Below are positions 15,627 to 37,185 of a stretch of 40,515 nt of DNA, one piece after another; the stretch's first letter is position 1, and each line of letters opens with the position of its first letter. Location: positions 1-40,515 of the forward strand of contig JASGUU010000090.1 in assembly GCA_030057555.1 (NCBI GenBank), in the 5' to 3' direction. The notes under the pieces were generated by a model. The model did not search any database. It saw only the letters and a program-made list of their open reading frames with translations, and had not been told where the DNA came from. Both the position numbers and the translations under genes were made by a program. The stretch is from Bacillota bacterium (lineage in GTDB: Bacteria > Bacillota > Clostridia > Saccharofermentanales > Fastidiosipilaceae).

Positions 15627-15650
15627 GCGGGGCGGAACGGGAATTTTGCC

Positions 15651-18266: not shown

Positions 18267-18274
18267 GGTGTGTG

Positions 18275-19168: not shown

Positions 19169-19202
19169 GCGTGTTCACGAATAAAAGAATGGAGGAAGAA
19201 GC

Positions 19203-21056
19203 ATGAAGCGATTAAAAGGATTAGCCCTTCTTCTTGCCGTTACAATCCTGGTTGTTGCGGCTGGATGTGGAAAGGGCAGCACAGGAACGTCAGGAGCTGA
19301 GACTGCTGCGCCGGAGACAGAAGCTGCTGCAAAGACGACAGAGCCTGCTTCCACCGAAAAGGAGGATGTTGGCACAACCGAACAAGATGAAAGCGAGGCT
19401 TCCGAAGCTGCGCCAGCAGTCGAATTTGAAGAAAACGTTCCACTTTACGTTACCGCCTTTGTTGGCAGGAATGAACCTGATGGAATCCGCACGGATCCAG
19501 TATCAAAGTACATCGAAGAAGCCCTGAACATCCAGTTGGAGCTGACTGGCGTTATCGAGTCTGATTACCCAACTCAGTTGTCTGGCATGATCGCGTCCGA
19601 CGAGTTGCCCGATGTATTCCTGTTTTCCGATGTGGTGAAGCAGTTCCCCATGCTCATGGCATCGAATCGACTTCTGGCTCTGGACGATTATCTGGAGCCA
19701 TATGCTCAGGAGACTCTGGATGATCCCAAAGGCGCTTTGATGATAGAAGCCTATCGTTCTCCTGCGACAAGCCCTGATGGCAGACTCTACCTCTGGGGCT
19801 TGTGCAAAGGGTCATGGGATGATGGTACATTGCCGACCTGTGGACACTACATTCGTTGGGATCTCTATAAGGAAGCCGGCTATCCGAAGCTGGAAACCTA
19901 TGATGAAGATTTGCTGGATGTCATTGAGGCCATGGTCGAAAAGGAGCCGGAGACGGAAGACGGTCAGAAAGTCTATGGTGTCGGTGCCTGGTTCGGCAAT
20001 GGTCAGGATTGGGGAGAGTGGGTATTCACCTACGGGCTGGCTCCTCAGCAGGGCGTGAATCTGGTCAATTCTGCAGCCAGAACGGTTGCTGTCTCAACCA
20101 AGGATTCGACACCTCTCGAGAGTAACCAGCTGAAAGATCCCGAAGGGTATTTCTGGCGGGCAGTACGCTTCTACAATCGGGCCAACCAGCGTGGCCTGCT
20201 CGATCCCGACTCGTTTACGCAGGCATCCGATGTGTATGAGGCTCGACTTTACGCAGGGCGATATGTGTTTAATGTTCCGGGCTGGATGGCATCGGGAGCA
20301 AACAACGAATATAACAAGACCGATGGCAATACAAAGGCTTTTGTTTCACTGCCTGCGATTGGCTCTGATGCGGAAGATCGATTTGGCAACATGTATAAAG
20401 GCGAACGGGCATATGGTGTAAACGCCTCAACAGAGTATCCTGAACGCTGTGTCGCCCTGCTGAATTTTGTGTCGTCCTATGAATTTTCCAGAATCGCCTG
20501 GAATGGCCCCGAAGGCATCAACTGGGACATGGTAGATGGTGTACCGGTTCCGAGGGATGAGTTCCTGACCGCTGAGCGCGATGACGAGTTCACGACACGT
20601 ACAGGGGCCAGTGTTTACCATCATTTCATGGGCTACGGAAATGGGACTGTCGATCCTGTGACCGGTGTCCCTGTAGACCTGTTCCAGTTCTCAGCAAAAG
20701 CACTGGAGCGCCGCATGAACGATACAATCCGCGACTTCATCAACCATTATGGGCAGGAGACACTGGTCGATGTCTATAAGGCTGAAACTGAAACAACTAC
20801 AGCAATGAACTTTCTGCAGTTCGGTGAAGCGCCTGCAGATATTCAGACGAACATTAACAATCTAAACGCCTTCATGGGTAAGAACATCTTCAAAGTTGTT
20901 GCGGCTGAAGATGATGAAGAATTCATCGCCTTGCGTGATGACATGATTCAGCAGATGGCAGAGTTTGATGTTGATGGCATATTTGATCACTTCTATACCG
21001 AGGCTCTTGAGCAGACGGCTGAAGTTGAGAAGCTTGCAGCTCTGGCTGGTCAATAA
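19203..21056 (+). CDS. Extracellular solute-binding lipoprotein, importer 1
   Basis: This 617-residue protein has a lipoprotein signal peptide (MKRLKGLALLLAVTILVVAAGC) with Cys22 as the lipidated residue. A Thr/Glu/Ala-rich linker of about 55 residues tethers it to the membrane. The rest is a type-1 solute-binding domain of the LplA/YtcQ kind, with features such as SKYIEEALNIQLEL, SGMIASDELPDVFL and YLWGLCKGSWD. At over 600 residues it is larger than classical MalE-type proteins, which suggests an oligosaccharide ligand. The start has AATGGAGGAAG. It is the last importer gene and is followed by a perfect 14-bp hairpin that could keep its transcript abundant relative to downstream genes. Confidence 0.93.
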   Translation: MKRLKGLALLLAVTILVVAAGCGKGSTGTSGAETAAPETEAAAKTTEPASTEKEDVGTTEQDESEASEAAPAVEFEENVPLYVTAFVGRNEPDGIRTDPVSKYIEEALNIQLELTGVIESDYPTQLSGMIASDELPDVFLFSDVVKQFPMLMASNRLLALDDYLEPYAQETLDDPKGALMIEAYRSPATSPDGRLYLWGLCKGSWDDGTLPTCGHYIRWDLYKEAGYPKLETYDEDLLDVIEAMVEKEPETEDGQKVYGVGAWFGNGQDWGEWVFTYGLAPQQGVNLVNSAARTVAVSTKDSTPLESNQLKDPEGYFWRAVRFYNRANQRGLLDPDSFTQASDVYEARLYAGRYVFNVPGWMASGANNEYNKTDGNTKAFVSLPAIGSDAEDRFGNMYKGERAYGVNASTEYPERCVALLNFVSSYEFSRIAWNGPEGINWDMVDGVPVPRDEFLTAERDDEFTTRTGASVYHHFMGYGNGTVDPVTGVPVDLFQFSAKALERRMNDTIRDFINHYGQETLVDVYKAETETTTAMNFLQFGEAPADIQTNINNLNAFMGKNIFKVVAAEDDEEFIALRDDMIQQMAEFDVDGIFDHFYTEALEQTAEVEKLAALAGQ

Positions 21057-22181: not shown

Positions 22182-22202
22182 AGGGAGTTGGAAGGGATTA
22201 AA

Positions 22203-23234
22203 ATGAACAAAATCCATGGGATAGTATATGCGTACGATACGGAAGATGAATTCGAGCAGGTAAAGGATGCAGGGCTTTTCTGGATCCGGATTAACATCGG
22301 ATTTCCATGGAAAGACCGTATGCATGGCGAGTTGAGTGAAAAGTACCTGGACGGGCGCGAGCGGATTCGAGCTGCACACGCGGCCGGCATGAAAGTTATG
22401 CCGGCTACACCGCCTCTGGGTGGCTGGGTTTACGTACCCGAGAAAGGCGAAACTGCCTGGGTTGATGAATTTCCAGCCTTTGTCGGTGAGAAGGGTACCG
22501 AAGCATATTATGAAAATGTCCGTGAAGCCATGGAATTCGTGGCAAATGATCTGAAACCTTTCGCAGCAGATCTCTGGCAGTGCATGAACGAGATTGATAT
22601 TCCTACTTTTTCAAACGATTATCCTCTGGACGTGATATGTAATACAGCTCGAGCGAGCGCAGAAGGCATTTTGAGAGCCAGTCCCCAAGCCTTGTGCGGA
22701 ATTAATCTGTCCTCCTATCGTCCGGACGCTGTCGTATACGCAGATTTAGTGCACCGGAAGCCGTCACCCATGCGTTACATCGGTATTGATCAGTACTTTG
22801 GCTCCTGGCAGACGGGAGACATTCATTCATGGCCTCCGGTTATTGATGCGCTGTTTGAGCGGTATGAGGTTCCTGTTTTGATCAACGAATGGGGATATTC
22901 ATCATCTGGAAGAGTGATCACAGAAGAGGACAAAAAGCCAGAACACCTCAAGCCGGAAGGGTGGCCGGATGTCTGTCACAACCTGGCCTGGTTTCACGAA
23001 GTCGACGGGGGACACACGGAGGAGACACAGGCACAATATATACGGGATGGTCTTACGATCTTCATGCAGCATCCACATGTGCTTGGTCAGTTCATTTTCT
23101 GCTGGAAGGATGCCAAGCACTGCTATCACTGTGGGCAGGAGAAATGTCCAGCAGAATGTTTTTGGGGAATTACGCGAAATGATCGCTCTTTCAAGCCTGC
23201 ATATCATGTTGTGAAAGAGCTGCTAACCCAGTGA
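22203..23234 (+). CDS. Unclassified clan GH-A-like glycosidase with Cys cluster
   Basis: This 343-residue TIM-barrel-like protein has paired carboxylates placed as in clan GH-A: Glu130 in WQCMNEID (acid/base after Asn129) and Glu229 in VLINEWGYSS (nucleophile on strand 7). WRIN-like FWIRINIGFPW and GIDQYFGSWQ fit strands 1-2 and 6. It does not clearly match one GH family; GH5, GH39 and GH53 are the nearest types in my memory. A C-x2-C-x4-C-x3-C cluster (Cys307, 310, 315, 319) with His306 and His309 lies near the C-terminus and may bind a metal. There is no signal peptide. The frame extends to TTG 22188, but ATG 22203 follows GGAAGGG. It is co-oriented with GH43, 21 bp downstream. Confidence 0.75.
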   Translation: MNKIHGIVYAYDTEDEFEQVKDAGLFWIRINIGFPWKDRMHGELSEKYLDGRERIRAAHAAGMKVMPATPPLGGWVYVPEKGETAWVDEFPAFVGEKGTEAYYENVREAMEFVANDLKPFAADLWQCMNEIDIPTFSNDYPLDVICNTARASAEGILRASPQALCGINLSSYRPDAVVYADLVHRKPSPMRYIGIDQYFGSWQTGDIHSWPPVIDALFERYEVPVLINEWGYSSSGRVITEEDKKPEHLKPEGWPDVCHNLAWFHEVDGGHTEETQAQYIRDGLTIFMQHPHVLGQFIFCWKDAKHCYHCGQEKCPAECFWGITRNDRSFKPAYHVVKELLTQ

Positions 23235-24001: not shown

Positions 24002-24084
24002 GCTGTGCAATGGCTGCGGGTCTGTCCTGTTGATGTTGACCGACAGGAGAAAGCTGGCCCGTTGCAGCAAGAACGGATGGAGAA

Positions 24085-24110
24085 GAAGGGTGGCCGGCCG
24101 ACCACCCTTC
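24085..24110. terminator. Bidirectional terminator-like hairpin
   Basis: GAAGGGTGG (24085-24093) and CCACCCTTC (24102-24110) pair perfectly around an 8-base loop. It lies between the convergent cupin (ends 24001) and alcohol dehydrogenase (ends 24141). On the minus strand the stem is followed by TTCTCC, a weak U-tract. Confidence 0.6.
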
Positions 24111-24140
24111 CTCGCTGAAGAGACATACAGAATAAGAAAC

Positions 24141-25166
24141 CTACAGATCGATGACGACCTTTCCGGTTCTGCCGCTGTCGAACAGCCGCACCGCATCTAT
24201 GATCTGATCAAAGCCGAAGCGATGGGTAACCATGGCCTCAAGGTCAATATTCTGCTTGCGGATCAGGTCAATGATGTCGTAGTGATACTGCCTGGGCATG
24301 ATGGAAGAGCCCATCAGTGTCAGTTCCTTGCCAATCATGGTGTACAGGCTGGGAGCCTGATCCGTCTTCAGGGACATGGGGCCGTTGAAACCAACCATGC
24401 AGATTCTGCCGTGCACAGCAGCCGCTTCCAGTGCCTGTTTCTGGGCGACCATGGAGCCGGAAGATTCATAGATGCAATCGGGACCTGCACCGCCGGTCAG
24501 CTCTTTCAAGGCCTTTACCGTATTCGCTTCCCTGAAGTCGACCACTTCATCGCAGCCCATTTTGAGACCGAGGTCCAGACGTTCTGCGATGCCATCAATG
24601 CCAATCACACGGGCGCCGAAAGCTTTTGCAAAGGCGACGCCCGCCAGACCTACGGGGCCCAGACCGAACACTGCCACGACACTCTGCCCGTTGGGGTTGA
24701 GCTTGCGCATGGCGGAATAGGAGGTCCCGGCGAAGCAGCCGATAAAGGCGCCGACCGCATACGAAATATCATCGGGAAGAGGCAGACAGTTTGCCTCCCT
24801 GACCAGACATTTTTCGGCATCGGTGCCATGCTCGATGCCGGCCAGTGCACGACGATCTGTGGTACAGAACTGCACATAGCCGGACATGCAGTTCCTGCAT
24901 TTGCCGCAGCCGATGATGTGGTACAGGGCAACGCGGTCTCCGATCTTGACGGTGGTAATGCCGTCGCCAACGGCGGAAACAATGCCGGCACCCTCATGCC
25001 CCATGATCAGATCGCGGTTCAGATTGGGGTTGTGCAGGTTGTGCAGGTCGGAGCCGCAGAGGCTTGTACATTTGATGTCCACGACAACCTCGCCGGGTCC
25101 GGGCGTCGGATCGGGGAAATCGCGAATCTCCATTTCGCCAACGCCGGTGAATACCAGTCCTCTCAT
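24141..25166 (-). CDS. Zinc-dependent medium-chain alcohol/polyol dehydrogenase
   Basis: This 341-residue protein of the sorbitol/threonine dehydrogenase type has catalytic zinc residues Cys37 (LCGSDLH) and His57-Glu58 (GHEGAG), with Cys144 in FIGCFAGTSY further along. The structural zinc lobe has four cysteines (87, 90, 93 and 101; CGKCRNC...C). The NAD(P) Rossmann motif is FGLGPVGLAGVAFAKA (167-182). It oxidises or reduces a secondary alcohol of a sugar, polyol or sugar acid. It is the last gene of the minus-strand importer array, 61 bp after a binding-protein gene, which ties it to the imported compound. TTG 25181 is in frame, but ATG 25166 follows AAAGGA and is preferred. Confidence 0.9.
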   Translation of the reverse strand: MRGLVFTGVGEMEIRDFPDPTPGPGEVVVDIKCTSLCGSDLHNLHNPNLNRDLIMGHEGAGIVSAVGDGITTVKIGDRVALYHIIGCGKCRNCMSGYVQFCTTDRRALAGIEHGTDAEKCLVREANCLPLPDDISYAVGAFIGCFAGTSYSAMRKLNPNGQSVVAVFGLGPVGLAGVAFAKAFGARVIGIDGIAERLDLGLKMGCDEVVDFREANTVKALKELTGGAGPDCIYESSGSMVAQKQALEAAAVHGRICMVGFNGPMSLKTDQAPSLYTMIGKELTLMGSSIMPRQYHYDIIDLIRKQNIDLEAMVTHRFGFDQIIDAVRLFDSGRTGKVVIDL

Positions 25167-25227
25167 TTTGCATCCTTTCAATTTCAGCGATTCAGCGAGA
25201 TGCAGCTGAACGATAACTGGATAAACG

Positions 25228-26943
25228 TTAATCCTCGCCGCTCATGTGAGCGATAAGATCCTCATAGCTGGAAGGGATGAAGTCCAGATTGTTTAGATCA
25301 TCCAGAACCAGCTGGACTTTTGGCATCATGGATTCTGTCCATGCTTTCCAGTCAGCTTCGATAGAGTCCTGTGTAGAGTTGATGAGCAGCTCAATGGCTT
25401 TTGCCTTCACCTCAGAGACGAACATACCCAGGGTATCCTTGTTGGGTGTGCTGGCATACAGCATGTTGTAGTCGACTTTGCCGATGTGCGCGTTCTCCCA
25501 GTCCCAAACCCAGGACTTGTTGCCATCAATTCGATCAGCCTCGGGAATTGAGACATTCAACAAAGCGTATTCTGCGTCGTTCAGCACTGGTCTTCCATAA
25601 AAACCGCGAGCACCAGGATAGGGATCAATGTATACCCCATTGGCGTTCTTTTCCCAGAGCAATTCGACACTGCCATCGGCATTCAGGGTATAGTCAGTGC
25701 CCTCCAGTCCATACATGCGGAAACGCATACCCTCATCGGTTAGCAGCCAGTTCCACATATCAAGGATGCGTTCTCTCTGTGCGTCGCTTGTTTTGGCACT
25801 GATGGAGTTCGCACTCCAGTAGCAGGGCGACTGTTTCTGCCAGAAGAACTTGTCATCCAGAGGTGAAGAAACTTTTGCAATTTGATACATGTCCTCACGG
25901 TTGAGATCCGGGAAGCCTTCCGCCATCCTGTCGCGACCGCTTCTCAGATTGGCAATAGTCGCATGCTGGCACATGGCTGTCATCTGGCCGGCATAATAAA
26001 GATCCTGATACATGGTGGAGTTCGTGTCGACCACATTATCGGGCCAGATAATACCGTCGTCATAGAGCTGCTTTGCAATCTTAAGGCCGGTCATGTATTC
26101 GTCAGTAGTGGGATACCAGACATACTGACCATCAATAACAATAAAGAAGGGTTCTTCAAATCCCCATTCATACGTATTGGTCTGATAGATGCCCAGCATA
26201 TCGGGGAAATACCACTGGGGAGCAGAAATGCCGAATGTTTTGCCGGCCCCATTTTCTCCCGGATCCTGCTCTATACAGGCCTTGATCAGGTCCATGAATT
26301 CGTTCCACGTGTAGACATCATCCGGTTTCCGCATGCCCAGTTTTTCTGCCCAGTCAGCTCGATAGACTATGTTCATGCAGACAGTGAAGTCCTGAGATGA
26401 CATATCACGCATACATGCCAGTGCATAGCAGTCTCCGTTTCGGGTAAACAGCTCATCACCAATCATCGAATCGAACAGATTGGCTATTTCCGGCCACGCC
26501 TTCAGATCTGAAGGCACAGGTGCAAACAGGCCGCTGTCGACCCATCCACACCATTCGGAGAAGATGTTCTCATTGAGATCCATCCAAAGCAGATCTGGCA
26601 GATCACCTGATGAAGCCCAAATTCTGGCTTTCTCATGTCGTTCACCAAATTGCATGGGGATGTACTGCATTTCCACATTGAACTTCTCGGAGAAGTAGGT
26701 ATAGAGGGCGTTGTCGACCTGCTTCTCAGCATCGGTGATGTTATGCGAGATGGTTACCTTCTCCTCATAGGCTGCTTCAGCAGGAGCTGTTGCCTCGGTT
26801 GAGACTTTACTTTCCTGAGGAGGTGTTTCGGGTTGGCGGTCCGATGCTGAAGGCTCTGTTGCAGAGGTTGTACATCCAACAAGAACAAATACCGTGGCCA
26901 TAACAAGGATAAGTGTTCTCAAAACGATTTGTTTCTTTTTCAT
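25228..26943 (-). CDS. Extracellular solute-binding lipoprotein, importer 2
   Basis: This 571-residue lipoprotein has signal peptide MKKKQIVLRTLILVMATVFV followed by the lipobox LVGC (Cys24), then a Ser/Thr/Pro/Glu linker and a type-1 solute-binding domain (VDNALYTYFSEKFNVEMQYI, DLPDLLWMDLNENIF, WNEFMDLIKACIEQDPG). It should be membrane-anchored and deliver sugar to the two permeases encoded just upstream. The frame opens much earlier (27099), but AAAGAGGACTGCA places the ribosome binding site for ATG 26943. It differs from the other two binding proteins in sequence, so the ligands are probably different. It sits between the permease pair and the dehydrogenase. Confidence 0.92.
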   Translation of the reverse strand: MKKKQIVLRTLILVMATVFVLVGCTTSATEPSASDRQPETPPQESKVSTEATAPAEAAYEEKVTISHNITDAEKQVDNALYTYFSEKFNVEMQYIPMQFGERHEKARIWASSGDLPDLLWMDLNENIFSEWCGWVDSGLFAPVPSDLKAWPEIANLFDSMIGDELFTRNGDCYALACMRDMSSQDFTVCMNIVYRADWAEKLGMRKPDDVYTWNEFMDLIKACIEQDPGENGAGKTFGISAPQWYFPDMLGIYQTNTYEWGFEEPFFIVIDGQYVWYPTTDEYMTGLKIAKQLYDDGIIWPDNVVDTNSTMYQDLYYAGQMTAMCQHATIANLRSGRDRMAEGFPDLNREDMYQIAKVSSPLDDKFFWQKQSPCYWSANSISAKTSDAQRERILDMWNWLLTDEGMRFRMYGLEGTDYTLNADGSVELLWEKNANGVYIDPYPGARGFYGRPVLNDAEYALLNVSIPEADRIDGNKSWVWDWENAHIGKVDYNMLYASTPNKDTLGMFVSEVKAKAIELLINSTQDSIEADWKAWTESMMPKVQLVLDDLNNLDFIPSSYEDLIAHMSGED

Positions 26944-27032
26944 TGCAGTCCTCTTTCTCATAACTAATGTTGATTCATGTCTCGCTCTCCTACACCGAAT
27001 AGCAAACCTCCTTTCTTGAAGAATGAGTATTT

Positions 27033-27929
27033 CTACCCTTTTACACCGCCGATCGCCAAACCTTGAACGAAGTATTTCTGCATAAATGGGTACAGACACA
27101 TAACGGGAAACATGGTGATGACGATGCTTGCCATTTTTACACCATCAGTAAAAGGTACAATTCCGGCTTCCTGCAGATGAGATGACATAACTTGAGCGCC
27201 AGTGGACTGAATAATCCCCCTAAGCACCAATTGCAGCGGCTGCTTGTAGGCGGTTTTGATAAACAGCATTCCGTTCCACCATTCGTTCCAGCGCTCAATG
27301 CCATAGTAGAGAGTGAAAGTCACTACCATGGGCATCGAGAGGGGAAGTATGATTCTAAAAAGAATCACTAAATCTGAAGCGCCGTCGATTCTGGCGGATT
27401 CTTCGAGCTCAACCGGGAGAGAGGCAAAGTATTTCCGCATGACAGTCATATACATAATGGAGATACCAGTAGGAAGTACCATGGACATCAAGGTGTCCAT
27501 TAGACCCATATCTTTTATCAGCAGGTAATAGGGAATCAGGCCACCATTAAAATACATTGTAAAAATGACAGCATATAAAAAGAATTTCTTCCCGGGAAAT
27601 TCGTTATTGAAACAGTAAGCCATTAGAACTGTAAGGATCATGTTATAAACAACGCCAAACAATGTGATAATTATGGTAACTCCCAGTCCGGTAAATATGA
27701 CCTTTGATTCAAAAACAATCTGATAGGAGGTAAGAGTCAGATTCTTGGGAAACAGCATGAATGGTGTCTTTACGTAATCTGCCTGTGGCGTAAAGGAAAC
27801 AAGAATGGAATTATAAAATGGATAGAGAATGAGCAAAGCAAAAATTGACATGAAAAGGATGTTGATGATATCAAACCAATTATTACGAACTATCTGATTT
27901 CTCATGTTGCGTTTGGCTAGAGTTGTCAT
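27033..27929 (-). CDS. Carbohydrate ABC transporter permease (LplC/YtcP type), importer 2
   Basis: This 298-residue protein has six membrane segments, starting WFDIINILFMSIFALLILYPFYNSILVSF. The EAA loop is LEESARIDGASDLVILFRIILPLSMPM and the tail YPFMQKYFVQGLAIGGVKG, as in YtcP. ATG 27929 follows CAGGAGAG. It lies 15 bp after the partner permease and forms with it the channel of importer 2. The sequence is AT-leaning at third codon positions. Confidence 0.93.
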   Translation of the reverse strand: MTTLAKRNMRNQIVRNNWFDIINILFMSIFALLILYPFYNSILVSFTPQADYVKTPFMLFPKNLTLTSYQIVFESKVIFTGLGVTIIITLFGVVYNMILTVLMAYCFNNEFPGKKFFLYAVIFTMYFNGGLIPYYLLIKDMGLMDTLMSMVLPTGISIMYMTVMRKYFASLPVELEESARIDGASDLVILFRIILPLSMPMVVTFTLYYGIERWNEWWNGMLFIKTAYKQPLQLVLRGIIQSTGAQVMSSHLQEAGIVPFTDGVKMASIVITMFPVMCLYPFMQKYFVQGLAIGGVKG

Positions 27930-27944
27930 TGTCGTACTCTCCTG

Positions 27945-28898
27945 TCAAAGAATCCCGGTTCCGCTAAGGCGGACGCAAATCCAGTTGGTCGTAAGCAACA
28001 GGACACAGTTGGTTATTCCCTTGAATAACCCAACAGCAGCGCTTAAGCCGAAATTCGCAGGACGCTGGAATGTGATGCGAAATACATAAGTATCTATAAT
28101 GTCGGAGACTTCATATACTGCAGGGTTATAGATATTAATGATCTGCTCGAAACCTGCATCCATGATGCTTCCCATGCGCATGATCAGGGTAACTACAACA
28201 ATCATGGAAATACCCGGCCAGGTAATATATCGCATTCGATGCCAGCGATTCGCTCCATCTATGGTAGCAGCTTCATACAAAGTGGGGTCAATGGATGTAA
28301 TTGCTGCCAAATACATGATGCAATTCCAACCGGATTCCTTCCAGGCCTGCAGAAACACAAGTAGCCATCTGAATATTCTTTTATCCGTTAAAAACTGGAC
28401 ACGGTCAAAATTCAACACAGCAAGCAAATTGTTGATGGCGCCATTTGTGCTCAACATGTTGAGCACCATACCTGATACGATAACCCACGATAAAAAGTGA
28501 GGAAAAGTATAAATTGTTTGTACTGTGCGCTTGAATTTTCTCTGTCGAATCTCGTTCAACAAAACTGCCAATACTATTGGGATGGGAAAGCAGATCAGAA
28601 TCTGCATATAGGCAATGATCAGGGTGTTACGGACAGCAATCCAAAAGTCACCATCAATAAACAGGAGGTTAAAGTTGCTGAATCCGATCCATGGGCTACC
28701 AGTTATTCCAAGGTTCACAGCATACTTCTTGAAAGCGAGCTGCACACCATAGATCGGTATATACTTAAAAATCGCAAAATAGGCGAGACCAGGCAACAAA
28801 AGGAGATAGATATACCGTTTTCTCCAAATTGCAGCGAACAGAGTCTTTGATTGCCGTGAAGGCTTGACGGAATGAGTAGATAATTCTGATTTATTCAT
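27945..28898 (-). CDS. Carbohydrate ABC transporter permease (LplB/YteP type), importer 2
   Basis: This 317-residue integral membrane protein starts with a hydrophilic 25-residue tail, then YIYLLLLPGLAYFAIFKYIPIYGVQLAFK, the family signature. The EAA loop reads YEAATIDGANRWHRMRYITWPG. It pairs with the YtcP-like permease downstream. ATG 28898 follows AAAGGAGG. It is 55 bp downstream of the UxuA-like gene, so it is probably in the same transcript. Confidence 0.93.
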   Translation of the reverse strand: MNKSELSTHSVKPSRQSKTLFAAIWRKRYIYLLLLPGLAYFAIFKYIPIYGVQLAFKKYAVNLGITGSPWIGFSNFNLLFIDGDFWIAVRNTLIIAYMQILICFPIPIVLAVLLNEIRQRKFKRTVQTIYTFPHFLSWVIVSGMVLNMLSTNGAINNLLAVLNFDRVQFLTDKRIFRWLLVFLQAWKESGWNCIMYLAAITSIDPTLYEAATIDGANRWHRMRYITWPGISMIVVVTLIMRMGSIMDAGFEQIINIYNPAVYEVSDIIDTYVFRITFQRPANFGLSAAVGLFKGITNCVLLLTTNWICVRLSGTGIL

Positions 28899-28953
28899 CT
28901 GTTCGCCTCCTTTGCTTAATGTCGTATTTCAGAATGAACTTGCACAATCGCTT

Positions 28954-30021
28954 CTATGAGACTTGAACACCATCGACGAGACCTTTTAAATAAGCGGTAA
29001 AGTAAGCTTCACAGGCGTAGTGGCCACCAACCATATCGATCAGATGGTCATTCATTACGGCACCGTCATATCCACCGTCATGCAGGACCTTGACAATGTT
29101 TCCCAAGCTGGCGTATCCGCCATCAGGGAAAGTCTCAGAGAAACCACCGGGGGCACTAAGCGGATTGGTGACATTCCGAAGGTGCAGCTTGAATAACTTT
29201 CTCTCTCCCAAAAAGTATTCGATGAATTCTTCAGGTGTAGAACCGACGACATCAGCACCCTGCAACCAGCAGCCTACACACAGGCATGCTCCGATGTGGC
29301 TGGAGTTCGCCATGGATATTGCCTGTTTATAGCCATCGAACGTTCCGAAGATGGTACGTGGTACTCCCGCCATGCATACTCCCGGCGGATCATCCGGATG
29401 GATACCAATCCGGACATCTGCCGCCTCGGCAACCGGGACCACTCGTTTGATGAAGTATTCGTAGTTCTCCCAAAGCTCGTCTTCAGAATAAGTCCTGCCG
29501 TGGCTTAAAGGCCACTCATAAATATCGCCCATCCAGTGACCTCTATTGGGCTGTTCAAGGTCAAGGCCTCCAGCTGTTGCATGGCCTCGAACTGGTCGAC
29601 GCCGTGTGTCTCGCCATATTCCATTGCCCATATGCGCGTAGGTAGCATAACGAATGCCCGCCGCACCAAGATCACTAATGTACTGAAGGTAACGATCGAT
29701 CATTCTGTCCCGGCCTTCAAGTCCAAGTGTCACTTCGGGCATGTTGTGAAGCAGATCGCTGGCGAGACGATATACCTTAAGTCCATGTTCACCGAGAGCG
29801 TCAACAATTGCCTTGTAACATGAGGCGGAGTGTTCTGGTACTTGATGAGCTCCAATCATGACCCACTCAACACCCATTTGTTGGATGAAACGGACACCTT
29901 CTTGATCCAAATGAATACGACCGCGTTCGTCTCGAGTTATCGGTCCTTCCATTTTGGTTCCAACCTGGATACCTGGTCGGCTGCTTACATAACCTGGGAT
30001 GGTCTTCATTTCATATGACAT
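28954..30021 (-). CDS. Mannonate dehydratase (UxuA)-like enzyme
   Basis: This 355-residue TIM-barrel protein belongs to the UxuA family, which dehydrates D-mannonate to 2-keto-3-deoxy-D-gluconate in hexuronate breakdown. Matching elements are IGIHPDDPPG (His208), LCVGCW (Cys251), KLFKLHLRNV (His280) and VMNDHLID (Asp326), in the order of the Mn2+ ligands known in UxuA. The N-terminal segment is reorganised compared with classical UxuA, so another sugar acid may be the substrate. TTG 30033 is in frame, but ATG 30021 follows TTGGAG. It sits between two complete importers, 66 bp after the importer 3 binding protein with a strong hairpin in between. I do not name it uxuA because specificity is uncertain. 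Confidence 0.8.
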   Translation of the reverse strand: MSYEMKTIPGYVSSRPGIQVGTKMEGPITRDERGRIHLDQEGVRFIQQMGVEWVMIGAHQVPEHSASCYKAIVDALGEHGLKVYRLASDLLHNMPEVTLGLEGRDRMIDRYLQYISDLGAAGIRYATYAHMGNGIWRDTRRRPVRGHATAGGLDLEQPNRGHWMGDIYEWPLSHGRTYSEDELWENYEYFIKRVVPVAEAADVRIGIHPDDPPGVCMAGVPRTIFGTFDGYKQAISMANSSHIGACLCVGCWLQGADVVGSTPEEFIEYFLGERKLFKLHLRNVTNPLSAPGGFSETFPDGGYASLGNIVKVLHDGGYDGAVMNDHLIDMVGGHYACEAYFTAYLKGLVDGVQVS

Positions 30022-30041
30022 GGCAAACTCCAAAAAGGTGG

Positions 30042-30070
30042 ATCAGGGTAGTGCCATGCACTACCCTGAT
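30042..30070 (-). repeat. Perfect 12-bp stem-loop between binding protein and UxuA-like gene
   Basis: ATCAGGGTAGTG (30042-30053) and CACTACCCTGAT (30059-30070) are exact inverted repeats around a 5-base loop. The stem starts 17 bp past the stop of the importer 3 binding protein and ends about 20 bp before the next ATG on the minus strand. A short U-rich CACCTTTTT follows in the minus direction, so partial termination or mRNA protection is plausible. Confidence 0.75.
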
Positions 30071-30087
30071 GTCCTGGCAATTCTGTA

Positions 30088-31725
30088 CTAGCCTTTTCCG
30101 TGAGTCTCGATGAATTCGTCATACTGTGTCTGCACTTCATCGATGATCTTCTGCAGACCATTCGCATACATTTTTTCGTTCAATTCATCGAGTGTTGCCT
30201 GCACATCCTGTGCGGCTCCAGCTTTCAGGATCGGTGCATACTGTGTGCGAATAGCTTCCACTGCTGCATATTCCGTTGTGATGTTCTTCATATCTACGTA
30301 GAAGCCCATGATTTTGCTGCGGCGCGCATTCTGATTGTATTCACGCAGCTCAACATAACGGTCCTCAGGCTGGTTTTCCCAAAGGGTGTTGAGGAACATG
30401 TTCCCGAAAAATGTCTCGAAGCCATATGCATATCCGGTATCCGACTGTGATGTCATGCCTTCCGGCAACTCAAAGTGGCCTTTGGCGTTAACAATATAGT
30501 TTGTTCCCTCAATGCCCGAATTGAAGAGATCCACAATCTCCCTGTCTGTGTGGAACAGGTTGATGACCATCATCGAACGCTCAGCGTCTGCCGTGGTTCT
30601 GGTAATGCATGTTAGAGCCGTTGTGTTTTGATAGGTATTCGTTATTGGCTGCGTGGCTCTCCAGCGATAGAATTCCGTACCGAACAGGACTTCATATGTT
30701 GACAGAGTTGTTGGTGCGCCGCCTCCGCCAACCATCCAGCCTTTTCCGGCCCGGAACATGTCGCCACCACCTGTTGTCGTTGTAGCGGCATCGGGATTGA
30801 TGAGCCCTTCATCCTGCCAGCGCTTGAGTGTTGTATAGCGGTCCAGATCCCATTCTGTCTCATAGTGGTTCATAACCTTGTCTGTCTCGAGATCAACGAT
30901 GAGCAGGTTGACAGCACCATTTAGTTCTTCGTAACGGAAGGGATTGTCTTTAATCGCATCAGTTGTCCACTCCATGTGGACACCTGTACCAGCCGATACA
31001 TAGTACGGGACCATGTCCGGTTCATTATCCTTTATTGTGATAAGCAGTGGCTCGAGATCCTGCAACGTCACCAATTCGTCGATTTTGAACTCATACTTAT
31101 CGCAGATATCTTTGCGAAAGTACCATGCTTCACTTTGTGCGGTCTGTTTCTGACAGGGAATCCCGTATAACACGCCATCAACCTTTGGCGCATCAATAAG
31201 CCCAGGTGTATTTACATCCATCTCAGCCAGCATGTCAGTAGCGAATTCGGCCACAAGCGCATCCAGCGGCAGATACAGATTGTTTGAGACATTTGTATAA
31301 AAACCTGTGTTGGCCTGATCAAAAACGAGATCGACCTGTTCTCCAGACGATAGTGTGAGCGGCATCTTCTGTACCCATTCCTGTCCTGGAACAGGGTACA
31401 CGTGAACAGTGCAGTTGAGCTTGTCTCTGAAATATTCGTCCATTGCCTTTTGAACAGGTTCGGCATTGTCCTGTTCACTGGCCCTGATGTAATAATTCAG
31501 TTCGACAAATGCCAGGTCTTCCGTGAGAGGATTTGTTTCTGGCTTCTTCTCCGTTTCCACATCGGGAGCGGTCGAATCATCTGTGGCTGTCTGAATGTCA
31601 GCTTTCTGATCCGTTACCTCTGCTTGTGTAGTCTTGGTGGCTCCTGATGCACCACAAGAAGCAAGCAGAGAAAGCATAATCAGCGTAAGCATAAACATAC
31701 GGACGATCTTTACTCTGTGTTTCAT
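30088..31725 (-). CDS. Extracellular solute-binding lipoprotein, importer 3
   Basis: This 545-residue lipoprotein has signal peptide MKHRVKIVRMFMLTLIMLSLLASC with Cys24 lipidated, then a Thr/Asp/Glu-rich linker and a type-1 solute-binding fold (FVELNYYIRASEQDN, YFRDKLNCTVHVYPV, YGIPCQKQTAQSEAWYFRKD). It supplies importer 3. The frame extends to 31785, but GGGAGGAAGGG precedes ATG 31725. It is downstream of its two permeases, in the same order as the other two importers of the window, and is followed by a strong hairpin. Confidence 0.92.
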   Translation of the reverse strand: MKHRVKIVRMFMLTLIMLSLLASCGASGATKTTQAEVTDQKADIQTATDDSTAPDVETEKKPETNPLTEDLAFVELNYYIRASEQDNAEPVQKAMDEYFRDKLNCTVHVYPVPGQEWVQKMPLTLSSGEQVDLVFDQANTGFYTNVSNNLYLPLDALVAEFATDMLAEMDVNTPGLIDAPKVDGVLYGIPCQKQTAQSEAWYFRKDICDKYEFKIDELVTLQDLEPLLITIKDNEPDMVPYYVSAGTGVHMEWTTDAIKDNPFRYEELNGAVNLLIVDLETDKVMNHYETEWDLDRYTTLKRWQDEGLINPDAATTTTGGGDMFRAGKGWMVGGGGAPTTLSTYEVLFGTEFYRWRATQPITNTYQNTTALTCITRTTADAERSMMVINLFHTDREIVDLFNSGIEGTNYIVNAKGHFELPEGMTSQSDTGYAYGFETFFGNMFLNTLWENQPEDRYVELREYNQNARRSKIMGFYVDMKNITTEYAAVEAIRTQYAPILKAGAAQDVQATLDELNEKMYANGLQKIIDEVQTQYDEFIETHGKG

Positions 31726-31765
31726 TGTCCCTTCCTCCCTCACAATTAGATTGACACGCAGGCTT

Positions 31766-32707
31766 TCAGCCTTTGACTGCGCCAACGGTCAGGCCGCTGA
31801 TGAAATATTTCTGGAAAAACGGGTAGGCTATAACAATAGGCCCTATAGAGGTAACGGCCATGGCCATGCGTAGAGATTCAGAAGGCATCTTTGCCAGCTC
31901 AATCATTGCTTCTTCAGACGAAAGTGTAGAAATGTTCTGCTGTAAGTACTGAACATTCATGAGTGCACGATTCATAACAAACTGAAGAGGGTATAGTTTT
32001 TTATCTGTTAGGTAGAGAAGAGCTTGAAACCAATCGTTCCAGTACCGGAATACAATAAACAAGCCTATGGTCGCAAGCATGGGCAAGGACAGCGGCAACA
32101 CAATCTGAAACAGAATTCTGCCTTCGCTGGCACCGTCAATACGCGCTGATTCAAGTAACTCACCGGGTATCGTATTGCGAAAAAAAGTGCGGGCAATAAG
32201 GATATAAAATGCACTCCCTATCAGTGGCAGGACTAGAGCCCAGACGGTATTGCGCAAATGCAACAGCCGTACATTAACCAGATATGTAGCCGTCAAACCT
32301 CCGTTAAAGAGCATGGTAAGGACAATAAACATCGAAAAAAAGTTGCGGAAAGGGAAGTCCATTCTCGAAATGGGATATGCATACAGGATGGTGATGAACA
32401 ACGAAATGAATGTGCCAACTATCACAATGAAAAAGGTTACAGAGTATGCATTTATAACCAGATCAGGTTTAGAAAATAAAAACTCATAGGCGTTTAGGGT
32501 CAACTCTCGCGTGAAGAACGTGTAACCGTTCTGCAGAATCAGATTTTCCGGGGTTAGCGAAATGATGACCAGAAGTGCGAGAGGGGCCAGGCAGGCAAGT
32601 GAAAACAGAATAAAGACGATATGGATCGCCAGATTGGCATACCATGGCGACCGGTTTATATGCAAGCTCTTTGCACTAACAGCATTGCGTTTATCATGAT
32701 CTGACAT
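31766..32707 (-). CDS. Carbohydrate ABC transporter permease (LplC/YtcP type), importer 3
   Basis: This 313-residue protein has membrane segments beginning NLAIHIVFILFSLACLAPLALLVIISL. The EAA loop is LLESARIDGASEGRILFQIVLPLSLPM and the tail YPFFQKYFISGLTVGAVKG. The upstream frame extension (to 32806) is an artefact; ATG 32707 follows TAGGAGC. It lies 10 bp after the partner permease, so the two are translated together. Confidence 0.93.
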   Translation of the reverse strand: MSDHDKRNAVSAKSLHINRSPWYANLAIHIVFILFSLACLAPLALLVIISLTPENLILQNGYTFFTRELTLNAYEFLFSKPDLVINAYSVTFFIVIVGTFISLFITILYAYPISRMDFPFRNFFSMFIVLTMLFNGGLTATYLVNVRLLHLRNTVWALVLPLIGSAFYILIARTFFRNTIPGELLESARIDGASEGRILFQIVLPLSLPMLATIGLFIVFRYWNDWFQALLYLTDKKLYPLQFVMNRALMNVQYLQQNISTLSSEEAMIELAKMPSESLRMAMAVTSIGPIVIAYPFFQKYFISGLTVGAVKG

Positions 32708-32717
32708 TGCTTTGCTC

Positions 32718-33677
32718 CTAAAACAGTGCTTGAGAGCTGTCGATCCTGCGAACAACCAGATTGGCTGTGATAACAGTGATAGCGCCAACAAATGACTGGA
32801 ACACACTGGCTGCTGAGGACATGCCGATGTTGTTCATGCTTGTCAATGCACGATAAACATAGGTATCAATGACGTCAGTCACTTCATATAGCATGGTGCT
32901 GTTCATAGTCACTTGATAAAAGAGACCAAAATCAGCTCGGAAAATATTCCCGAGAGCAAGAAGGAACATGATGACCATCGTTGGAATCAGCAACGGAATT
33001 GTTATGTAGCGAATTTGTGCCCATTTGCCTGAGCCATCAATCACTGCTGCTTCGTACAGGTCTTGGTCGATACCTGCTATGGCCGCCAGATAAACCACGC
33101 TTTTGTAACCCAGCTGTTTCCACCAGTGGACCAAAGGTAAGATGACTGGCCAATACTTGGGTTCGGAGTACCAGTTAATCTCTTTTTGCCCGATACGCCT
33201 GAGTACCTGATTAAAAAATCCAAGCTGCGGATGTAAAAATCCGTAGACCAGATAAGCAACAACGACCATTGACAGGAAATAGGGCAGGATAATAATGGTC
33301 TGGTAGATTTTCGAGATTCTCGGTTGCCATAACTCACGCATGGCAACTGCAACAAAAACTGCAAAAAAGACATCGCATATGATGAAAACAGCGTTGTAAA
33401 GCAATGTGTTGCGAGTAATTCTGAAAGCATCTGTAGTGGCAAAGAGAAAGCGAAAATTCTCCAGACCAACAAATGGACTATGCAATATGCCAAGTGAATA
33501 GTCGATTTTTTTAAAGGCGATAACGATGCCAAACATCGGAAGATAATTGAACAAAATGAATACGATCACGCCTGGCAAAAGCATGAACAAAAGTGCCCGA
33601 TAGCGGACTATGCTTTTTCCGAATCTGCGTAGCCAAGCCTGTCGACCAGCGTATTCCCTGTTGTCAACTGAGTTCAT
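32718..33677 (-). CDS. Carbohydrate ABC transporter permease (LplB/YteP type), importer 3
   Basis: This 319-residue protein has the signature YRALLFMLLPGVIVFILFNYLPMFGIVIAFK at the first membrane span and the EAA loop YEAAVIDGSGKWAQIRYITIPLL. It is the promoter-proximal gene of the minus-strand array, which runs permease, permease, lipoprotein, UxuA-like, permease, permease, lipoprotein, dehydrogenase. GTG 33692 is in frame, but ATG 33677 follows GGAGGACAG. It is divergent from the sensor kinase gene, whose product is a good candidate to control it. Confidence 0.93.
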   Translation of the reverse strand: MNSVDNREYAGRQAWLRRFGKSIVRYRALLFMLLPGVIVFILFNYLPMFGIVIAFKKIDYSLGILHSPFVGLENFRFLFATTDAFRITRNTLLYNAVFIICDVFFAVFVAVAMRELWQPRISKIYQTIIILPYFLSMVVVAYLVYGFLHPQLGFFNQVLRRIGQKEINWYSEPKYWPVILPLVHWWKQLGYKSVVYLAAIAGIDQDLYEAAVIDGSGKWAQIRYITIPLLIPTMVIMFLLALGNIFRADFGLFYQVTMNSTMLYEVTDVIDTYVYRALTSMNNIGMSSAASVFQSFVGAITVITANLVVRRIDSSQALF

Positions 33678-33935
33678 GTGACTGTCCTCCACATCTCGAA
33701 GGAAGTGACACTTTCACCTGCTAAATCAAATCTCGCATCTTTCAAGTTTCAGATCAATGCCATAAGTGTTAGATAGATAGCACTAATGAAAGATGTTTCA
33801 CCGAAGAGAACTGTGCACATTGCTTTATGTTTAATTATGTTAAAATAATATCGTTGCTGCTCTTTTGCCCTAAAGCAATCTGCATACAATCCAAGAAATG
33901 AGCGATTGATTGTCTCTCTCAGGGTGAACAACGCC
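33678..33935. promoter_or_regulatory. Divergent control region of importer 3 array and YesM/YesN pair
   Basis: This AT-rich non-coding DNA separates the divergent transporter array and two-component genes. A candidate plus-strand -10, TACAAT, lies at 33885-33890, about 45 bp before the kinase start, with a poor -35. Around 33815-33880 there are repeated TTTA/TAAA tracts (GCTTTATGTTTAATTATG, TAAAATAATA). GCTTTA and TAAAGC (33822-33827 and 33871-33876) form a spaced inverted pair that could be bound by the AraC-type regulator. No minus-strand promoter could be fixed with confidence. Confidence 0.35.
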
Positions 33936-35699
33936 ATGTTTAAGTCTCTGGTATCGAAGATCACATTACTGTTTAGCTGTACGATGACCCTTCTTATTAT
34001 TGTTATCATTGTGGCTATTGGCTGGTCCATCAGGTCGACACGATCACAGGTCGTACAGACTCAGCAGGCATTGCTGGAGTACTATTGTGGTCAGTTCGAC
34101 AGTTCTCTAGACCAGCTTAGAATCCAAATGGCCCAATTCAGTACGCATGATCTGGCAGTTATCACATTGGGGATTTACGAACCATCAGGTGATGCCTATA
34201 TGCTTAATCTGCAGGACTGTTTGCAGTCTCTGCAAAAAACAGTCAATACCAATCCGCTGTTGGAGACATCCTTCCTGTACGCCCAAAAGACCAATGCCAC
34301 ACTAACCGCATCGCGATCGTATACGAGCTACCGAAACCTGTATATCACAAGAAACATTACTAGTTTGCAGAACTGCTGTAGTAGCGTTTCCTCTTCTTCC
34401 TGGGATCTAATACGAGCAGATGGCTATTTTGGTGATAAAAAAGACAATATCTGGACACTCATCAAAATAGTGAAAGCATCTGACGGGGTATGGCTGGGCT
34501 CTCTGGTATCTGCAGCGTCACTGTTGCCGCCACTGTCGTCCATTACAAATACAGAAGGAGCGATTTTTGTTATTGCTGATAAAGAAGGAAATGTTTTAGA
34601 GTCAACAGACGATCTGTCTCTATTTTCTTCGGAATCACTTTCAGAAGCATTTCAGCACAACCATGTAACCTGGATTCGAACCCGTTCGCCAGGTGATAAA
34701 TATGTAGCTGTCTCATTTGACAGCGAACGTGCGCCGATTCGGATTGTTTCCCTTCTACCCGAAAGCTCAGTTATTCGACCGCTGCAAAGTACTATGACTC
34801 TGGCAAAATATCTGCCTTTTGCTCTTATTCTGTTCATCATCGTTTTGTCAATAGCTACCTACCGCAGCCTGAATAAGCCGTTTCAGACATTGACTTCCGG
34901 GATGAGACTGGTATCTACAGGTGATCTATCATATCGTCTCCCCGATGCTTCAACCTCTGAGTTCCGTTATCTGCATCAACAGTTCAACCAGATGGTCGGC
35001 AAAATTGAGTCGTTGAATCGTGATGTGCTGCAGCAGACTGAAAAGACCTACAGGGCGGAAATACGGCATCTTCAGGCTCAGATAAACCCCCATTTTTTCC
35101 AAAATACCCTGAATATTATTTATAGCCTCGCTGCATTGGAACGAACTGAAATGATCCAGCAAATAACACTCTATTTAGCTGAATATTTCCGTTTTATCAT
35201 GAGATCGGGTGATACGCCCGTGACCCTGGCTGAGGAACTGAAGCACGTAAGCAATTACATGGAGATACAAAAGATGCGCTATGCCGGAAGCATTGATTAT
35301 TCGATAACTTGCCCGGATGAACTGACTCGCATACGCATACTGCCACTTACGGTTCAGCCGCTTGTTGAAAACAGTGTAGTACATGGTTTCACAGCTGTTC
35401 GCCCGTTTCGTGTAGCCGTTAATGTTTACCAGGTTGGCTCGCTGGTGTTGATTGATATTAGTGATAATGGAAATGGTATCGACGAAGCAATATTACGACG
35501 GCTAAACTCAGAGACGGAGAACGATACGTATGACAGACACGATCAAATTGGCATTTGGAATGTTGTCATGCGATTGCGTAGATATATTGGTGATCAGTCT
35601 CGAGTGGTCTTTTATAGCGTAGTTGATGAAGGCACTTTGGCGCGCATCGAAATACCGTTTACAGTAGACGAGGACGAAAATGAATCTCTTAATTCTTGA
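33936..35699 (+). CDS. YesM-like sensor histidine kinase
   Basis: This kinase of about 587 residues has an N-terminal transmembrane helix (9-29), an extracellular sensor region of about 260 residues, and a second membrane span near 290-310 (LPFALILFIIVLSIATY). A HAMP-like stretch (SLNKPFQTLTSGMRLVSTGDL) follows, then the His_kinase domain with His386 in AQINPHFFQNTL, and an ATP-binding domain with N-box LVENSVVHGF and glycine motifs SDNGNGI and IGIWNV. Such kinases sense sugars outside the cell and phosphorylate YesN-type regulators. TTG 33906 is in frame; ATG 33936 is preferred. Its end overlaps the regulator gene by 20 bp. Confidence 0.93.
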   Translation: MFKSLVSKITLLFSCTMTLLIIVIIVAIGWSIRSTRSQVVQTQQALLEYYCGQFDSSLDQLRIQMAQFSTHDLAVITLGIYEPSGDAYMLNLQDCLQSLQKTVNTNPLLETSFLYAQKTNATLTASRSYTSYRNLYITRNITSLQNCCSSVSSSSWDLIRADGYFGDKKDNIWTLIKIVKASDGVWLGSLVSAASLLPPLSSITNTEGAIFVIADKEGNVLESTDDLSLFSSESLSEAFQHNHVTWIRTRSPGDKYVAVSFDSERAPIRIVSLLPESSVIRPLQSTMTLAKYLPFALILFIIVLSIATYRSLNKPFQTLTSGMRLVSTGDLSYRLPDASTSEFRYLHQQFNQMVGKIESLNRDVLQQTEKTYRAEIRHLQAQINPHFFQNTLNIIYSLAALERTEMIQQITLYLAEYFRFIMRSGDTPVTLAEELKHVSNYMEIQKMRYAGSIDYSITCPDELTRIRILPLTVQPLVENSVVHGFTAVRPFRVAVNVYQVGSLVLIDISDNGNGIDEAILRRLNSETENDTYDRHDQIGIWNVVMRLRRYIGDQSRVVFYSVVDEGTLARIEIPFTVDEDENESLNS

Positions 35700-37185
35700 T
35701 GACGAGATTTATTTCCTTACTGCGCTTAAGGAGAAGGTCCCCTGGCACGAACACGGCATCAGCGAAGTATTGACGGCTGAGACAGCAGCCAAAGCCCGTC
35801 AGTTGCTTCTTGATACGACCGTTGATGTTGCCATCTGCGATATTGAGATGCCGGATGAGTCCGGTCTGGAGTTCGCTAAATGGTTGCTTCATAACGAGCC
35901 GACCACTCAGGTGATCTTTCTAACTGGACATGCTCGTTTTGAGTATGCTCAACAGGCAGTCAGGTTGGATGCGTTTGATTACATAGTAAAACCAGTTCCT
36001 TTTGCTCAGATTCTGGAGAGCGTTATTCGTGCCTGCGAGCAGGTAGAGGCAATACAACAGCAAAACAAGGATGCGCGAAGATGGGAAAGATACGAAACGG
36101 AACTACAGATACAAAGGCCAGAACAGATAAGACAATTCTGGCGTGATGTCATTGATAATCGTGTCAGCCGAAAGAGGATATGGTCGCAAATAGCTGGTTT
36201 CGATATTTCGCTGTCTGAAGACGAACAGATTCTCCCCATAGCAATTTGGATTCGTGATGATCAAAGATTCCAGCTGGCCGATCCAGAGGATCTTGCCGGC
36301 TTTGCCCTGCGAAAGCAGATTGATTCATTTCTTGGCACATCTGGCTTGTCGCTGGCATATGAGGGTATGGATGCACTTGTTCTGATCTACCAGTCAAATG
36401 TTTCTGCCGAGCTATTATGTCGGGAGCTAAAAAACATCGCGATACAGTTGGGCTGTATTGTCGAAAGCCGAGTCGGTGATTTGTCCAGTCCAGAAGAGTT
36501 GTGGTGGACAGTACAGGAATTGGTCAACCAGCTTGTAAGGCCATCAGCCAATATTCCGGCCCTTTCCCAAATACAATGGGAGCGAATGCTATACCACAGA
36601 GACGTAGATCTGCTGCACGAACAGGTAGCTGTTGTGCGTGAGCTCCTGGAGCGTGACGGCTGTACACCGGATCTGTTAATTGCCTATCACGAGTTAAGTG
36701 CTGCTGTGTGGTCGTTATCTGTTCAGAATCATCTGAGTGAACGTACAAGCAGTTTGCTGACAAGTTACAATGCTCAGCAAGATAATTGCGGCAGGCTGGT
36801 ACAATGGATGTACAGTTTGATAAATTCCTGTGTTGCTGACTTGGAAACAGGCTTTGGCAGCCAGTCGACAGCTGTCTACAACGCATGTCTCTTCATTGAC
36901 AAGAACTTAGGTAATGAATTGTCGAGGGAGATAGTGGCCCAGCAGATTCATATGCATCCTGTCTATTTTGCGCGACTGTTCAAAGACGAAATGGGCATGT
37001 CGATAGGTGACTATGTGGCACGGAAGCGGGTTGATCTATCCAGACAACTGCTTATGAATGATGGTCTGAAAATACAGGCGATTGCGAAACAATGCGGGTT
37101 CACGAATGTGTCTTACTTCAATCGTGTATTTCGAAAGCATACCGGAATGACTCCTATAGAATATCGAGAAAATGCGCTTGCCTGA
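35680..37185 (+). CDS. YesN-like AraC-family response regulator
   Basis: This 501-residue regulator has a receiver domain (1-120) with acidic residues Asp7-Asp8, phospho-acceptor Asp54 in AICDIEMPDESG and Lys104 in YIVKPVP. A variable middle of about 270 residues follows, then a C-terminal AraC/XylS DNA-binding domain (about 400-500) with two helix-turn-helix units (SREIVAQQIHMHPVYFARLF and KIQAIAKQCGFTNVSYFNRVF, then KHTGMTPIEYRE). It overlaps the kinase gene by 20 bp, showing translational coupling. It probably activates the divergent importer array when phosphorylated. The gene ends before an inverted repeat that could terminate it. Confidence 0.95.
   Translation: MNLLILDDEIYFLTALKEKVPWHEHGISEVLTAETAAKARQLLLDTTVDVAICDIEMPDESGLEFAKWLLHNEPTTQVIFLTGHARFEYAQQAVRLDAFDYIVKPVPFAQILESVIRACEQVEAIQQQNKDARRWERYETELQIQRPEQIRQFWRDVIDNRVSRKRIWSQIAGFDISLSEDEQILPIAIWIRDDQRFQLADPEDLAGFALRKQIDSFLGTSGLSLAYEGMDALVLIYQSNVSAELLCRELKNIAIQLGCIVESRVGDLSSPEELWWTVQELVNQLVRPSANIPALSQIQWERMLYHRDVDLLHEQVAVVRELLERDGCTPDLLIAYHELSAAVWSLSVQNHLSERTSSLLTSYNAQQDNCGRLVQWMYSLINSCVADLETGFGSQSTAVYNACLFIDKNLGNELSREIVAQQIHMHPVYFARLFKDEMGMSIGDYVARKRVDLSRQLLMNDGLKIQAIAKQCGFTNVSYFNRVFRKHTGMTPIEYRENALA

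Follow-up and report, generated by a model that had tools for sequence, protein, structure and literature searches.

The window analysed here is a DNA stretch of 40,515 nucleotides from a Bacillota bacterium of the family Fastidiosipilaceae (assembly GCA_030057555.1, contig JASGUU010000090.1), and our subject was an array of eight codirectional minus-strand genes that runs from position 33677 down to 24141. In transcription order, the array encodes two permeases and a solute-binding protein (SBP) of a first importer (P1-A, P2-A and SBP-A), an enzyme resembling the mannonate dehydratase UxuA (hereafter UXU), the same three components of a second importer (P1-B, P2-B and SBP-B), and a zinc-dependent medium-chain dehydrogenase (MDR). 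Start codons were picked from the ribosome-site context, and the gaps between the genes are short. The gene calls and Pfam searches bore out the gene order and coordinates of the initial annotation, as well as its divergent YesM/YesN pair (33906-37185), which comprises a PF06580 kinase with a HAMP domain and a regulator with a receiver and an AraC-type helix-turn-helix (Table 1).

Table 1. Features of the array and its flanks
Feature	Position	Strand	Evidence
YesN-type response regulator with AraC helix-turn-helix	35680..37185	+	PF00072, 77.2 bits; PF12833, 87.6 bits
YesM-type sensor histidine kinase, divergent	33906..35699	+	PF06580, 83.9 bits; HAMP, 31.0 bits; PF02518, 21.5 bits (below cut-off 26.4)
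P1-A, importer A permease	32718..33677	-	PF00528, 40.6 bits; ATG at 33677, GGAGG upstream
P2-A, importer A permease	31766..32707	-	PF00528, 30.2 bits; start set by ribosome-binding site
SBP-A, DUF3502 solute-binding protein	30088..31725	-	PF12010, 70.2 bits; PF01547, 24.7 bits (below cut-off 26)
Terminator/attenuator-like hairpin, then U-run, between SBP-A and UXU	30042..30070	-	13 pairs; z -4.07
UXU, predicted UxuA-fold TIM-barrel enzyme, distinct clade	28954..30021	-	PF03786, 110.3 bits (cut-off 23.7)
P1-B, importer B permease	27945..28898	-	PF00528, 50.2 bits
P2-B, importer B permease	27033..27929	-	PF00528, 38.5 bits
SBP-B, solute-binding protein	25228..26943	-	PF13416, 26.6 bits (just below cut-off 27)
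MDR, zinc-dependent medium-chain dehydrogenase	24141..25166	-	PF00107, 97 bits; PF08240, 89.3 bits
Strong hairpin past MDR, probable terminator	24080..24140	-	z -3.70 for 24080-24144

As judged from its relatives, the array is a tandem of two importer-enzyme cassettes, each with two permeases, an SBP and one enzyme. The permeases of importers A and B are paralogous and distant (33% identity), and both SBPs have N-termini that look lipoprotein-like by eye. None of the eight genes encodes an ABC ATPase (the rest of the genome was not searched for a shared one), and no glycosidase is found within the array itself.

We examined UXU by family models and by structure prediction. The protein lies far above the cut-off of the Pfam UxuA model, so that the automatic label 'mannonate dehydratase' is likely for it, and it stays under both NCBIfam cut-offs for mannonate dehydratase (TIGR00695, 68.8 versus 199.55 bits; NF003027, 96.1 versus 191 bits). 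An AlphaFold2 model built from a 65-row alignment (the window protein and 64 relatives) had a mean predicted local distance difference test (pLDDT) score of 96.4. Its best PDB matches were the mannonate dehydratases of S. suis, E. faecalis and E. coli (Z 34.3, 33.0 and 32.7; root-mean-square deviation 2.6-2.9 over 309-319 residues). The next entry had a Z of 23.8, which leaves a gap of about 9 or more Z units among the 50 entries listed.

For the residue counts, we aligned 82 UXU-family proteins with six canonical UxuA sequences (E. coli and five from the window's own family). Of 433 matched stretches in the genome collection, 364 encode UXU relatives, and the best 80 of these were fetched. 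Altogether 91 UXU-family open reading frames were found; nine of at least 420 aa were left out, and the remaining 82 fell into a main clade of 76 (at least 38% identity to the window UXU) and an outgroup of six (26-31%). We observed that all 76 main-clade proteins retained H208, C248, H280 and H326 (E. coli H233, C271, H298 and H352), which we take to be the metal and catalytic residues of UxuA, and also the equivalents of E. coli H68, D235, D236, R246, R300, E313 and D351. At E. coli Y368, however, every one of the 76 had a gap, and none carried an Arg at R373 or R349; Y368 and R373 were both present in 6/6 canonical and 6/6 outgroup sequences. In the S. suis mannonate dehydratase, a Tyr of the C-terminal region is reportedly catalytic. 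The clade also has residues of its own (window numbering): T127, A129, H130, N133, W184, W252, K278 and T297 in 76/76, and Y303 in 75/76. The alignment confirmed the divergent N-terminus of the initial annotation, and the C-terminus differs as well.

The nine long proteins were then aligned too. Eight belong to the main clade (two of these, L013 and L016, being on the same contig), and 8/8 agreed with the other members at Y368, R373 and R349. The ninth (L065, 28% identity to the window protein) had the Tyr, with Lys replacing the Arg. Six further UxuA-like proteins from genomes G034 and G094 comprised one canonical protein, two with the Tyr and without R373, and three without the Tyr (L143, L144 and L146, all of G094); the UxuA superfamily seems to contain several Tyr-less branches.

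In a tree of 50 sequences, the main clade was recovered with support of 100/99, with a long-branch warning at the canonical rows. UXU is assigned, from model, alignment and tree, a predicted UxuA fold within a separate clade. The UXU family was seen in several phyla, among them Bacillota, Spirochaetota, Chloroflexota, Latescibacterota and Armatimonadota. The window UXU was sister to the second UXU copy of its genus (100/99), and since the tree places it beside the genus's own copies, it can be ascribed to duplication within the lineage; a recent import from another phylum was rejected on the same ground. By eye from the translations, C87 of the own genome, where the second copy lies, also holds a row (L012:13555-19031) of 2-oxo-acid decarboxylase/hydratase-like, acylating acetaldehyde dehydrogenase-like and 4-hydroxy-2-oxovalerate aldolase-like genes, together with LarA-like and peptidase-like genes.

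UXU is probably not a standard mannonate dehydratase, going by the residues lost and gained, and the usual database name for this branch is probably wrong or incomplete. Under a different assignment, UXU would be no dehydratase; it would belong with the wider xylose-isomerase-like barrel and isomerise or epimerise a keto-sugar that comes from MDR or from neighbouring enzymes of the short-chain dehydrogenase/reductase (SDR) or Gfo type. UXU does match AP_endonuc_2 (49 bits, cut-off 31.1); the lower-ranking fold matches among the 50 listed include sugar epimerases and isomerases, such as the 3-keto-glucoside 4-epimerase YcjR, as well as 2-hydroxy-3-keto-glucal hydratase; and an SDR gene lies directly beside UXU on the same strand in 6/80 fetched loci. 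The H/C/H/H set is nevertheless that of UxuA, and the three mannonate dehydratases stand well clear of all other fold matches, so we regard this assignment as unlikely.

We then considered the uronate pathway in the rest of the genome (96% complete). A PF03786 search found just the two UXU genes there and no canonical UxuA. Glucuronate isomerase (UxaC) was present (519 bits, cut-off 387), as were two copies of 2-keto-3-deoxy-6-phosphogluconate (KDPG) aldolase, one of which adjoins a PfkB gene resembling 2-keto-3-deoxygluconate (KDG) kinase and a galactonate-dehydratase-like gene. On C34, a row (L136:4844-8933) contains a fructuronate-reductase-like gene, a nickel-dependent putative hexonate epimerase (NPN_18, 562.9 bits, cut-off 500) and a KDG-kinase-like gene; the KDG-kinase-like proteins and the fructuronate-reductase-like protein reach no NCBIfam cut-off. 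The absence of UxuB, KdgK and KdgA noted in the initial annotation therefore holds for the window and fails for the genome, and we rejected it as a sign of a new pathway. Candidates for KdgK and KdgA elsewhere in the genome (regulon membership aside) are one half of what that annotation had named as the mark of an ordinary hexuronate pathway, the other half being activity on mannonate only.

In such an ordinary pathway, UXU would serve this lineage as its mannonate dehydratase, and its partners, all encoded outside the array, would be glucuronate isomerase, the fructuronate-reductase-like enzyme, KDG kinase and KDPG aldolase. The lack of a canonical UxuA and the presence of UxaC and the other candidate steps in the own genome are in keeping with this. 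Among 12 genomes of the family, UXU occurred in two and canonical-type UxuA in five with no overlap (five had neither), a pattern that speaks for replacement; G034, on the other hand, has a canonical UxuA in addition to UXU. All 76 UXU proteins, moreover, lack the Tyr and Arg that are invariant in the six canonical sequences. The epimerase next to the fructuronate-reductase-like gene could also divert mannonate: LarA groups related to it convert D-mannonate into D-gluconate, a hexonate has been proposed as the substrate of group 18 (PMC7583248), and further D-gluconate/D-mannonate epimerases are described in a second source (PMC11770544). Mannonate therefore need not depend on UxuA here, and the C34 row is a possible mannonate bypass. 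Taken together, we consider it improbable that the array simply belongs to an ordinary hexuronate pathway.

When we examined relatives for the cassettes, cassette B (P1-P2-SBP-MDR) was found complete in G094 (L124; 72/72/55/65% identity). In G034 (L123), P2-SBP-MDR were present at 73/64/75%, on a contig that starts just before P2, so that P1-B is unseen. In both, the MDR gene has the same position after SBP-B. Cassette A (P1-P2-SBP-UXU) was found in more distant loci of Clostridiales, L025 (40/41/22/66%) and L033 (39/38/24/65%). In these two loci the next gene after UXU encodes a DUF362 protein (assigned by Pfam in L025 and by clustering in L033); DUF362 genes recur near cassette A and cassette B (L025, L033 and L124), and one of them has 4Fe-4S domains. 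As L138, the G034 contig carrying UXU, is identical to L025, G034 holds both cassettes, on separate contigs (L138/L025 and L123). Counting the query genome, MDR orthologues of at least 65% identity were found in 3/391 genomes sampled from the class, and at E<=1e-90 MDR was seen in the query genome alone among 398 genomes sampled over the phylum. UXU at E<=1e-90 occurred in 4/391 class genomes, and all three MDR genomes were among these.

The two cassettes may also be unrelated in substrate, and united by chance or for shared regulation only. They lie apart in G034, the cassette B of L123 and L124 has no UXU close to it, the window has a terminator-like hairpin between the two, and the cassette-A UXU of L025 and L033 is of another subclade. 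Against this, G034 has both, whereas a search of its sister genome G067 (73% complete) yielded no MDR orthologue and no main-clade UXU. In L124, furthermore, a cassette-A-like importer (45/40/23%) with a Gfo/Idh/MocA dehydrogenase stands divergent to cassette B. Unrelated substrates thus seem to us rather unlikely, if less so than the two alternatives above. L124 also has a second cassette-B importer copy (11971-15734; 67/69/47%) downstream of MDR, without an MDR of its own. We found no evidence for the earlier suggestion that the two importers may handle one polymer in different sizes; each importer is conserved with its own enzyme, and this pairing is just as much an argument that their substrates differ.

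The initial annotation had further proposed one transcript of eight genes. The gaps between the genes fit an operon, and a single eight-gene transcript is possible; it was not established, given the strong hairpin between SBP-A and UXU. None of 200 shuffles was equally stable, and the distance from the hairpin to the UXU start is only about 20 bases. A scan found no promoter-like site in that interval. From the hairpin, the U-run and the lack of such a site, the genes downstream of SBP-A probably rely on read-through. The two cassettes may share regulation. Terminator-like sites overall were at chance level (11 found versus 11.2 expected), and the promoter scan gave fewer sites than shuffled sequence (11 versus 22.5). 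By eye, from single folds with no shuffle control, stems were also seen 3' of the SBP gene in L025, L033 and L123; no stem was apparent by eye in the 46-base SBP-MDR stretch of L124. L025 has a promoter-like sequence (TTGACC-17-TAAAAT, by eye) between its hairpin and UXU.

MDR has ADH_N and ADH_zinc_N domains, and the Cys/His and four-Cys motifs seen in the alignment are presumably its zinc ligands. It falls under the NCBIfam equivalog cut-offs (tdh, 182.3 versus 458.35; NF007489, a PRK10083-type Zn oxidoreductase, 161.8 versus 376). The nearest of nine E. coli paralogues compared was YphC (33%), for which no relevant paper that could serve as a functional guide was found in the open-licence library searched.

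We also evaluated the genes around UXU relatives, called with an in-house program that may miss small genes and gives approximate starts. In L015 (UXU 76% identical), UXU is followed by importer permeases, a KDPG aldolase, an SDR and a galactonate-dehydratase-like gene. L029 has an SDR, a NanA/DapA-type aldolase (below the cut-off for either) and a xylose-isomerase-like barrel. The UXU array of L140 contains an SDR, an aldo/keto reductase, importer genes and a 3-dehydro-L-gulonate 2-dehydrogenase (399 bits, cut-off 316); a 638-aa protein with no Pfam match is encoded two genes upstream of this UXU (L140:11785-13701, G094). A glucuronoyl-esterase-type gene stands directly before UXU in seven loci (L054-L058, L060 and L064), the cluster having eight members and being identified from a scan of L054. 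As regards the SDR neighbours, we rejected the classical D-mannonate oxidoreductase, since five of the six adjoining SDRs were scanned and no such model appeared among the 25 families listed; among seven SDRs scanned (these five and two others), NF006132 was matched by one, non-adjacent, at 178.6 versus a cut-off of 281. Judged by gene content, the neighbours point to acidic or oxidised sugars and to no single one, many loci having none of them. Three Chloroflexota loci (L067, L072 and L092) have in common a row made up of two enolase-superfamily-type genes, whose cluster was identified solely through its members in L015 and L076, and of two more gene clusters; next to this row, in L067 and L072, lies an outgroup UxuA-like protein with the C-terminal Tyr/Arg kept.

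In the window itself, a third importer (17322-21056) is followed directly by a GH43 gene, with an arabinofuranosidase-type gene, L-arabinose isomerase and an FGGY kinase more distant. These nearby genes suggest that the neighbourhood serves plant-glycan use. Beside the GH43 gene, a 348-aa protein without a Pfam match (22188-23234) has a 44% homologue, L037:8820-9848; UXU, a gene of the SDR cluster and a glycyl-radical enzyme are encoded close to that homologue.

Together, these observations lead us to read the array as a module for a sugar acid or keto-sugar in which the UxuA-fold enzyme is non-standard, a reading for which we see about as much ground for belief as for doubt. The likelihoods that we attach to it and to its alternatives overlap and need not add up to one. 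Under this reading, cassette A would import an acidic or oxidised sugar of plant origin, either free or as part of a short oligosaccharide. UXU, as a metal-dependent enzyme, would then dehydrate (or isomerise) an aldonate or keto-sugar without the canonical C-terminal Tyr, whose place may be taken by the near-invariant His130, Lys278 or Tyr303. Cassette B would import a related compound, and the zinc dehydrogenase would oxidise or reduce that compound at a secondary hydroxyl. The products would leave through the KDG kinase and KDPG aldolase encoded elsewhere. The module for an unusual acidic sugar that the initial annotation envisaged survives in part: a sugar-acid type is plausible, as the sugar-acid neighbours of the relatives also suggest, and it is the UxuA-like enzyme that is unusual.

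We advance a broader proposal more tentatively, with doubt outweighing belief: that UXU is the founding member of a widespread UxuA-fold family, easily misnamed mannonate dehydratase, whose active site has been rebuilt and whose reaction is not the dehydration of mannonate, and that in this genus a duplicated copy was drafted into a two-importer module that uses an acidic or oxidised sugar from plants along a route not yet described. The novelty is in the UXU clade and the cassette logic, and not in missing KdgK and KdgA.

Several observations weigh against these interpretations. Of the six sequences in the canonical reference set, five come from the family to which the window belongs. Nor is the loss of the Tyr unique to the UXU clade, since it is shared by the three Tyr-less proteins of G094, which are more distant (27-34% identity to the window UXU). 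The array has neither a uronate-specific enzyme nor a polysaccharide lyase. The neighbour clusters are mixed, and the commonest one besides UXU, counted over all of the fetched flanks, occurs in 16 of 83 sources clustered (window included). The second UXU copy, present in the two genomes of the genus that were examined (C87 and G009), lies, by eye, beside dgt/pepF-like genes with no importers, which argues that UXU has a role without them. As G034 and G094 belong to the same family, the co-occurrence of MDR and UXU is close to one independent event. Finally, the permeases of cassette A in L025 and L033 share no more than about 40% identity with those of the window, and the SBPs 22-24%, while the UXU there is in a different subclade from that of the window; the pairing of importer and UXU may therefore have arisen twice.

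If the residue changes do mean another substrate or chemistry, many reconstructions of uronate-use pathways would be wrong, and the cassette comparison indicates which importer belongs with which enzyme for testing. In the open-licence library searched, we found no paper on uncharacterised UxuA subfamilies and none that linked YesM/YesN with rhamnogalacturonan.

Among known systems, UxuA/ManD (PF03786; PDB 3ban, 1tz9 and 4eac) shares the predicted fold over nearly the whole chain, and its HPDDP, Cys, H-x-R and DH motifs are also in UXU. In contrast, UXU lacks RWYG at the N-terminus, the segments TDL and LPG, an Arg that precedes PDH and the Tyr/Arg of the C-terminus, and it gains an invariant T-Y-A-H-M and K278 and a near-invariant N-G-I-W and Y303. 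RspA/RspB and LgoD of E. coli are, as we understand them, acid-sugar enzymes with an MDR dehydrogenase. The rspA and rspB genes are adjacent, and here too a putative acid-sugar enzyme of lyase type and MDR are found together; RspA, however, is an enolase-superfamily enzyme, unlike the UxuA-fold UXU, and no enolase-superfamily match was found among the 30 window proteins scanned. MDR is 29% identical to RspB and 28% to LgoD, and is nearer to YphC. In Bacillus, importers of pectin and other plant glycans are controlled by YesM/YesN. There, as here, the kinase/regulator pair is divergent from an importer with a DUF3502 SBP; the present array differs from those systems in having two importers and two catabolic enzymes, and no lyase.

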